A stretch of 64,000 nt of DNA, taken from assembly GCA_937920555.1 (NCBI GenBank), contig CAKZTM010000006.1:23095-87094 (forward strand). The letters are read 5' to 3'. Made by a program: the position numbers and the translations under genes. Positions 4,209-7,027 of this stretch are shown in pieces. Under the pieces are notes generated by a model. That model was not told the DNA's origin and made no database searches. It was given only the letters and a program-made list of their open reading frames with translations. This DNA is from an uncultured Paracoccaceae bacterium (GTDB lineage Bacteria > Pseudomonadota > Alphaproteobacteria > Rhodobacterales > Rhodobacteraceae). Within the stretch, counting starts at the first letter, position 1. Each line of letters starts with the position of its first letter.

Positions 4209-4604
4209 CGTCAATCAGCTAGTTTTCGCTCAACTTCGAAAAATAAGCGCAGGTTAACGACTTTTCCAAAAACAGCTTGATCAAAAACGAATCAAATTGC
4301 GCCAACACCACCTGTGAGTGTGGCAACATTGTGTCACTTCGAGTTTTACATGAAATTCTCGCCAATATTATGGACTGTAAGAGCCTCTCTTAACGCTTTG
4401 AAGTAAAACAAATATTTTTATACCCCCGCTAAAAGCGCACTCTTCAACCGGAAAAGTTCATTGCAAATTTCTGCTCCCGACCTATCTTCTTCTTTAGCCC
4501 ATGGGGGGCTGTAAATATTGCTTTAGTCGCGTCAAGTAACGGCGTGACGTTCAACTTTGGCGCACTCTTATCTTTGGCGTCATGTACTTATTGGGGGCTA
4601 CCAC

Positions 4605-5399
4605 ATGAAAAAGACAACTATCGCAATTATTGCGGCGATACTGCCTGTGCAAATGGCATTCGCTGGGGGACATTCTGCGAAAAACGCAATGGATGTGCTC
4701 GAATCCTTGAACGACAAAGGCTATGTCGACCTTGGTATCGAGGAAACAAACAAGAAAATCATCGTTTACGGTGAGAAGAAAGGTAAGCGCGTCGCTCTTA
4801 CTTATGAGAAAGACGGTTTTGATCTGGTCGGCAAGCGCGTCACCAAGGTTAATCCCCGCAACGTATCCAGCGACAAAAAAGGCGTAGCACGTCTTCACGA
4901 CGCCGAAGAGACGACAATCGACGCGCGTGAAGAGCTGAACGATCTTCGCGAAATTGGCGCACCTGCGGGCCGCGTCCACGAAGCTGAAGAGACCTTCTAC
5001 GACGCCGAGGAAGAAGAAGACGATATCCGCGCAATTCTGTCCAAAAAAGCCGGTAAGAAAGACGGACCCGGCAAAAAGAAAAAGGGCAAGCGCGCAGACG
5101 GCCCCGGCAAGAAAGCTGAAGTCGAGGAAATCGTAGAAGTTGTTGAGAAAGTCGGCAAAAAAGACGGACCCGGCAAGAAGAAAAAAGGCAAGCGCGTAGA
5201 CGGCCCCGGCAAGAAGAGATCCGGTATCGTTGAGCGTCTGCATGAAGCCGAAGAGACCACAATCGACGCCCGTGAAGAGCTAAACGATCTTCGTGAATTG
5301 CGTGCGCCTGCGGGCCGCGTGCATGAAGCTGAGGAAACGCTTTACGACGCCGAAGAGGAAGAGGAAGACATCCGCGCGATCGCGCAGAAGAAGCACTAA
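4605..5399 (+). CDS. Secreted repeat protein: PepSY-like N-terminal region, then acidic / Lys-rich / Lys-rich / acidic modules
   Basis: In-frame ATG at 4605 gives a signal peptide (MKKTTIAIIAAILPVQMAFA); internal protein and DNA repeats visible; followed by a terminator. Confidence 0.8.
   Translation: MKKTTIAIIAAILPVQMAFAGGHSAKNAMDVLESLNDKGYVDLGIEETNKKIIVYGEKKGKRVALTYEKDGFDLVGKRVTKVNPRNVSSDKKGVARLHDAEETTIDAREELNDLREIGAPAGRVHEAEETFYDAEEEEDDIRAILSKKAGKKDGPGKKKKGKRADGPGKKAEVEEIVEVVEKVGKKDGPGKKKKGKRVDGPGKKRSGIVERLHEAEETTIDAREELNDLRELRAPAGRVHEAEETLYDAEEEEEDIRAIAQKKH
4890..5043 (+). repeat. Acidic module copy 1 (RLHDAEETTIDAREELNDLRE..VHEAEETFYDAEEEEDDIRAI)
   Basis: Near-identical module recurs at about 5235-5387. 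Confidence 0.85.
5052..5114 (+). repeat. Lys-rich module copy 1 (GKKDGPGKKKKGKRADGPGKK)
   Basis: 63-nt unit; second copy at 5154-5216. Confidence 0.9.
5154..5216 (+). repeat. Lys-rich module copy 2 (GKKDGPGKKKKGKRVDGPGKK)
   Basis: Near-identical to 5052-5114. Confidence 0.9.
5235..5387 (+). repeat. Acidic module copy 2
   Basis: RLHEAEETTIDAREELNDLRE..VHEAEETLYDAEEEEEDIRAI. Confidence 0.85.
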
Positions 5400-5426
5400 G
5401 CTCTTCCAAATATCTCTATATGAGAA

Positions 5427-5455
5427 AGGCGCTGGGTATCCCGGCGCCTTTTTTT
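5427..5455 (+). terminator. Intrinsic terminator between convergent genes (repeat protein and pth)
   Basis: AGGCGCTGGG-TAT-CCCGGCGCCT followed by T7. Confidence 0.88.
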
Positions 5456-6313: not shown

Positions 6314-7027
6314 ATGTCATTTGACGACAATACCAACATAACCGTTCTGCCAAGCCCGTCTTACGCGCCGCCCTGCGACACCAAAGTCCTTGTGTTGGAG
6401 GATAATCTGGTCGATCGCAACGTCATGACACGGGCCGCCAAGCAATCCGACATGACGCTCGAATTTCAGTTCGTCGAAACCCTCGCACAAATGACAGAGA
6501 TGGTGCAAAAACACCGGTTTGATCTGGCCATACTCGACTATAGACTGCCCGACGGGACCGGCCTTGATGCCATAAAACTGCTCACCGGATCGGCGCTGAA
6601 TTATAACTGCGCCAATATCATGGTCGCCTCCGAGGCCGAGATTACCATCGCCGTGGCCGCCATGAAATCCGGCTGCTCAGATTATATTTTGAAAGAAGAC
6701 CTCACACCGGCGGCCTTGCGCCACGCGATCATCAATGCCCTGCAAAAATCAGAACTGCGCAAAAAAGTATCCGACGCCAGCCAAAATCTGGTGTCACTGC
6801 GCAGCACGCTTCGGGAGCATTCGGAATTATCCACAACATTCGTCCGCCCGATGATCCGCCGGACCTTGGCTCAGGTGTCTGCGTTGGAGTTTTCCATGCG
6901 GCAGACCGGGCAAAGCCCAACGGATATGCGCCTAGAGATTATCACCGAAAACTGCCGGGACGTTTTGAATTTTTGCGATAAGATTGAACGCGACGGCGTT
7001 CTGGCCGGACCAAACCCGGCCCTATAA
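6314..7027 (+). CDS. Response regulator: REC domain with helical C-terminal extension, no obvious DNA-binding domain
   Basis: VLVLEDNLVDRNVMTRAA, LAILDYRLPDGTGLDAI, KSGCSDYILKEDL. Confidence 0.85.
   Translation: MSFDDNTNITVLPSPSYAPPCDTKVLVLEDNLVDRNVMTRAAKQSDMTLEFQFVETLAQMTEMVQKHRFDLAILDYRLPDGTGLDAIKLLTGSALNYNCANIMVASEAEITIAVAAMKSGCSDYILKEDLTPAALRHAIINALQKSELRKKVSDASQNLVSLRSTLREHSELSTTFVRPMIRRTLAQVSALEFSMRQTGQSPTDMRLEIITENCRDVLNFCDKIERDGVLAGPNPAL

Follow-up and report, generated by a model that had tools for sequence, protein, structure and literature searches.

In the PepSY/BLIP-like superfamily (PF03413, PF13670, PF11396), exported proteins have an alpha plus antiparallel beta domain (PDB examples include 4exr, 4hbr, 4k61 and 4fr9), and the superfamily is thought to work through partner binding (PMC2954215). 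Genes for small exported PepSY proteins often lie close to two-component genes; one such protein, DbfQ of V. cholerae, directly regulates the histidine kinase DbfS (PMC12714742). Another PepSY protein, UipA of Microbacterium, binds uranyl via a negatively charged face (reviewed in PMC8963506). Here we describe a gene from an uncultured Paracoccaceae bacterium whose product has a probable signal peptide, judged by eye, and a weakly PepSY-like N-terminal domain, followed by a tail of acidic and Lys-rich modules in the order A1-K1-K2-A2.

The gene and its transcription unit

The gene lies in a 64,000-nt stretch of contig CAKZTM010000006.1, called the window below. We found the ORF, its coordinates and its module layout to be the same as in an earlier, sequence-only reading of this DNA. 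The features are as follows.

4593..4597, + strand: GGGGG, possible weak ribosome-binding site 7 nt 5' of the ATG, read from the sequence
4605..5399, + strand: exported-protein gene, 264 aa plus stop (264 codons, ATG to TAA)
4605..4664, + strand: signal peptide MKKTTIAIIAAILPVQMAFA, read by eye, with probable cleavage before GGHSAKN
4665..4874, + strand: PepSY-like N-terminal domain, predicted alpha-beta-beta-beta-beta (AlphaFold2, profile match, hhalign)
4890..5048, + strand: acidic module A1, 53 aa, 50-aa core of net charge -14, predicted helical hairpin
4890..4952, + strand: half-repeat a1 RLHDAEETTIDAREELNDLRE
4971..5033, + strand: half-repeat a1' RVHEAEETFYDAEEEEDDIRA
5052..5114, + strand: Lys-rich module K1 GKKDGPGKKKKGKRADGPGKK, net +8, disordered in the model
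5115..5153, + strand: short acidic/hydrophobic linker AEVEEIVEVVEKV from K1 to K2, seen in the sequence
5154..5216, + strand: Lys-rich module K2 GKKDGPGKKKKGKRVDGPGKK
5235..5393, + strand: acidic module A2, 53 aa, 50-aa core of net charge -13, predicted helical hairpin
5235..5297, + strand: half-repeat a2 RLHEAEETTIDAREELNDLRE
5316..5378, + strand: half-repeat a2' RVHEAEETLYDAEEEEEDIRA
5422..5452, + strand: intrinsic terminator, stem GGCGCTGGG/CCCGGCGCC then T7 (fold -26.4 kcal/mol, z -5.3)

The neighbours are hemH (ferrochelatase), pth, a receiver-domain protein gene and rplY. hemH lies upstream across a gap of 395 nt (GC 0.43), and pth lies downstream on the opposite strand, convergent with the gene. 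Given its own terminator, the AT-rich gap after hemH and the opposite-strand pth, the gene is most simply a one-gene transcription unit. An Rfam search returned no family, with sub-threshold matches covering the terminator. The receiver-domain protein (6314-7027) is a stand-alone protein with a C-terminal part that we did not recognise, and pth lies between its gene and the one at 4605-5399. The signal peptide, MKKTTIAIIAAILPVQMAFA/GG, looked typical when judged by eye.

Modular architecture and predicted structure

The two copies of each module are close at the protein level, with 46 of 53 residues identical between A1 and A2 (87%) and 20 of 21 between K1 and K2 (95%). They are also still clearly repeated in DNA, the A modules over 153 nt at 82% identity (starts 4883/5228, spacing 345) and the K modules over 68 nt at 91% (starts 5046/5148, spacing 102); in 200 codon-shuffled versions of the gene, identity over 153 nt reached at most 49%. 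Differences between A1 and A2 fall 5/2/26 on codon positions 1/2/3 (26/33 at the third), with 20 synonymous and 7 amino-acid-changing codons out of 53, and those between K1 and K2 fall 0/1/5 over 21 codons (5/6 at the third). This concentration at third codon positions identifies the + frame as the coding frame, and the opposite-strand ORFs at the locus were rejected because the pattern fits the + frame. By the Nei-Gojobori method we obtained dN 0.09 and dS 1.38 for A1/A2 (dN/dS about 0.07) and dN 0.02 and dS 0.50 for K1/K2 (about 0.04). These values bear out what the sequence-only reading had suggested from the synonymous differences, and support the view that the copies arose by duplication and have since been under selection for their protein sequence; part of the third-position pattern could also come from gene conversion or biased composition. 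The lower dS of K1/K2, over few codons, suggests that the K pair is younger than the A pair or homogenised. The earlier description of a mirror order, acidic-basic-basic-acidic, holds for the symmetrical arrangement of the modules and does not extend to their orientation, as every copy is a direct repeat and none is inverted. Within each A module a half-repeat of 21-26 residues occurs twice, a feature absent from that description, giving four copies in all with the consensus [RL/RV]H-x-AEET-xx-DA-x-EE-xx-D-x-R and 12 of 26 columns invariant.

Structure prediction separated the modules into ordered and disordered parts. In an AlphaFold2 model of the whole protein, made from single-sequence input and with an overall pTM of 0.29, A1 and A2 were two-helix hairpins (pLDDT about 90-95), the K region was disordered (pLDDT below 50) and the N-domain was alpha-beta-beta-beta (pLDDT about 80 in its core); the model shows no packing between A1 and A2. 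The acidic modules are thus modelled as ordered helical hairpins, which is probably what they are, and not as low-complexity chain. All four A helices have a common heptad register, with L/V, A, T/F/L, A, L/E and L/I at a/d (column permutation p = 0.002), as expected for the predicted Ala-rich antiparallel coiled coil. The mature chain is near neutral, with 52 K/R and 57 D/E. Its charges are strongly segregated at short range: a 5-residue blob measure gave 0.143 for the mature chain and 0.168 for the C-terminal part, against maxima of 0.121 and 0.142, respectively, in 1000 shuffles, so that the observed value exceeded 1000/1000. Long-range patterning, measured as sequence charge decoration (SCD), was ordinary at -2.0 (shuffle mean -1.5, sd 1.1). 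Foldseek with the whole-protein model gave weak matches only.

Modelled alone, the N-domain was H-E-E-E-E with a pTM of 0.52 and a core pLDDT of about 80. It matched a profile built from related secreted PepSY proteins at 11.9 bits, a score reached by 0 of 2000 shuffles, with E 7e-6 when valued as a single planned test. With hhalign we obtained E 1.8e-4 and a probability of only 48% (28% identity over 40 residues). The domain was unmatched by the Pfam PepSY models PF03413, PF13670 and PF11396 even at E 10, the gene was not listed in a PF13670 search of the genome and the protein was not recovered when the A3 profile was run genome-wide. Foldseek returned several PepSY/BLIP-like entries among its matches, all of them weak (E > 0.1). 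The PepSY-like segment of the sequence-only reading therefore stands as a likeness, weakly supported, and not as family membership: we use the label "PepSY-like" because the domain lies below Pfam and genome-wide detection and the structure matches are weak. The window protein also has no attached peptidase.

Relatives and secreted PepSY proteins of the same family

No relative was found at E <= 0.001 among 298 genomes of the same bacterial family, a survey in which the source genus is represented by one genome. The N-domain gave no convincing match in 298 family genomes, nor did a profile of the A module among 397. A DNA pattern for the K motif, run over 338 family genomes, returned this gene and one chance site; the sole DGPGKKK pattern match outside the gene (L132) lies between and antisense to other ORFs. 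Six 8-residue peptide patterns, run over a collection of 85,462 species, gave zero matches, and whole-protein scans of plasmids and phages gave no relatives. Two further weak matches were rejected, one (L003) overlapping other genes and containing an internal stop and the other (L004) a different protein, RhuM-like by eye. The earlier reader recognised no named family for the repeats, in agreement with searches of Pfam, NCBIfam, the PDB and the family genomes, which linked neither the A nor the K modules to a named repeat family. A literature search found no description of such a protein, and no orthologue was found that would show the A and K modules kept over time.

Synteny gave a similar picture. 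Genes other than this one follow hemH in the twelve closest relatives read (L054-L065) and in a plasmid-listed record, and no orthologue was found around pth in relatives. A relative of hemH is found in Qingshengfaniella (67%). Another, in a plasmid record labelled Halomonas (NZ_CP040452.1 1301167-1302233, L134), encodes a ferrochelatase 75% identical to the product of the window's hemH. The best relatives within the family are no closer than this; the gene may have been transferred, or the record may be mislabelled.

A secreted PepSY protein with a poly-Asp tail, encoded near pth in the genome whose hemH is closest (L099 3739-4230), served as the starting point for a survey in which such a PepSY domain was found at E <= 0.01 in 62 of 249 family genomes sampled. 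Nearly all of the PepSY relatives read have Asp-rich tails, and several match Pfam PepSY_2. Some (loci L101-L130) have two PepSY domains or adjoin a second type carrying RTLLGRVRI. In two genomes (L099 2542-4230 of G001 and L098 1976-3569 of G223), a membrane LuxR-type regulator gene lies beside secreted PepSY-poly-Asp genes between pth and trpB, and the second locus also encodes an exported EF-hand-like plus poly-Asp protein. The window lacks this gene group at the corresponding position, and its genome, about 83% complete, yielded no PepSY-poly-Asp counterpart. The PepSY-poly-Asp proteins (for example L099 3739-4230, L107 and L110) resemble the window protein in their highly charged C-terminal part, in the length and predicted fold type of the N-terminal domain and in having a signal peptide, which in the window protein is judged by eye. 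Their tails are mostly Asp runs, very acidic and apparently unstructured, whereas that of the window protein is near neutral, modular (A-K-K-A) and partly helical, with Lys-rich blocks.

Possible roles and comparison with known systems

The explanation we tentatively prefer is that this exported PepSY-like protein is an orphan with a tail that has become an ordered block polyampholyte and works through its charge. The single-gene unit would yield a periplasmic or extracellular protein, export being judged by eye. By analogy with DbfQ, UipA and the partner-binding superfamily, the N-terminal domain is the likely docking part. In this view the acidic modules are antiparallel hairpins of two helices, each with a charge of about -13, and the flexible Lys-rich stretches K1 and K2 (each about +8) connect them. 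Hairpins and stretches may pair electrostatically, both inside one molecule and from one molecule to another, and this pairing would be balanced against other contacts, the K modules binding envelope polyanions and the A modules binding cations. The resulting role would be that of a charge-driven envelope adaptor or matrix protein. The functions proposed in the sequence-only reading (electrostatic self-assembly, a matrix protein that binds metal, mineral or polysaccharide, or a condensate former) are plausible candidates. The preferred explanation is favoured by the repeat architecture, the purifying pattern, the blob-measure segregation, the heptad register, the hairpin model and the PepSY-like domain, as well as by the strongly charged tails of secreted PepSY proteins in many related genomes. 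Counting against it are the ordinary SCD, the low pTM of 0.29, the lack of an adjacent partner gene and of any orthologue found in which the modules persist over longer times; if the organism is marine, high salt would screen charge contacts. We consider it unlikely that the folded hairpins and flexible linkers, as alternating matched charge blocks, form a self-assembling envelope matrix or condensate and so a new kind of exported protein.

An improbable alternative is a metal-binding envelope protein, in which the PepSY-like domain together with the acidic helices would hold cations such as Ca2+ or Fe3+ and the K modules would anchor the protein to LPS or polysaccharide. It is favoured by the uranyl-binding face of UipA (PMC8963506, as above), by the PepSY-poly-Asp proteins in related genomes, one beside the EF-hand-like plus poly-Asp protein, and by the position downstream of ferrochelatase. 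Against it, no named metal motif appeared in the Pfam search and Lys, being abundant, would be a competitor for the acidic side chains; a haem/iron operon is opposed by the 395-nt gap, the separate terminator and the different post-hemH genes in relatives. Also doubtful, to a similar degree, is that the repeats expanded in this lineage alone and do little, a PepSY-like protein having diverged and recently gained a charged tail. The lack of relatives in family genomes, species, plasmids and phages is consistent with such a tail, as is a GC3 of 0.57 compared with 0.66-0.73 in six neighbouring genes. The strong third-position bias and low dN/dS in both module pairs argue against it, as do the intact frame and a heptad register kept in four half-repeats. 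Least likely, and by our estimate quite improbable, is a periplasmic signalling ligand whose PepSY-like domain binds a sensor in the membrane, in the manner of DbfQ and DbfS (PMC12714742), and whose charged tail senses the envelope state: exported PepSY proteins are often near two-component genes, PepSY genes adjoin the membrane LuxR-type regulator in relatives and a receiver-domain protein is encoded at 6314-7027, but no histidine kinase or membrane regulator was recognised next to the gene, the convergent pth separates it from the receiver gene and the PepSY homology of the N-domain is weak.

The protein is a compact, naturally occurring block polyampholyte of near-zero net charge, its acidic blocks predicted to be ordered and its basic ones disordered, and it apparently lies outside the cytoplasm; if it self-associates, it would be a simple bacterial model for charge-driven assembly. 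The finding also points to a set of exported PepSY proteins, little studied and widespread in the same family, whose charged tails are extreme. Among PepSY proteins of the envelope, DbfQ is known as a regulator and UipA as a metal binder; unlike for the window protein, repeated acidic or Lys-rich modules are not reported for them in the available parts of PMC12714742 and PMC8963506. The window gene further differs from those of DbfQ-like regulators in having no adjacent two-component operon and no kinase among its neighbours. A coiled-coil part combined with Lys-rich repeats that bind polyanions is known from the mycobacterial heparin-binding haemagglutinin (HBHA). These lysine-rich repeats are named in the available parts of PMC3234249 and PMC10665949. 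We claim no homology to HBHA, which has another repeat sequence and no PepSY-like domain; the comparison is one of how the two proteins may work.
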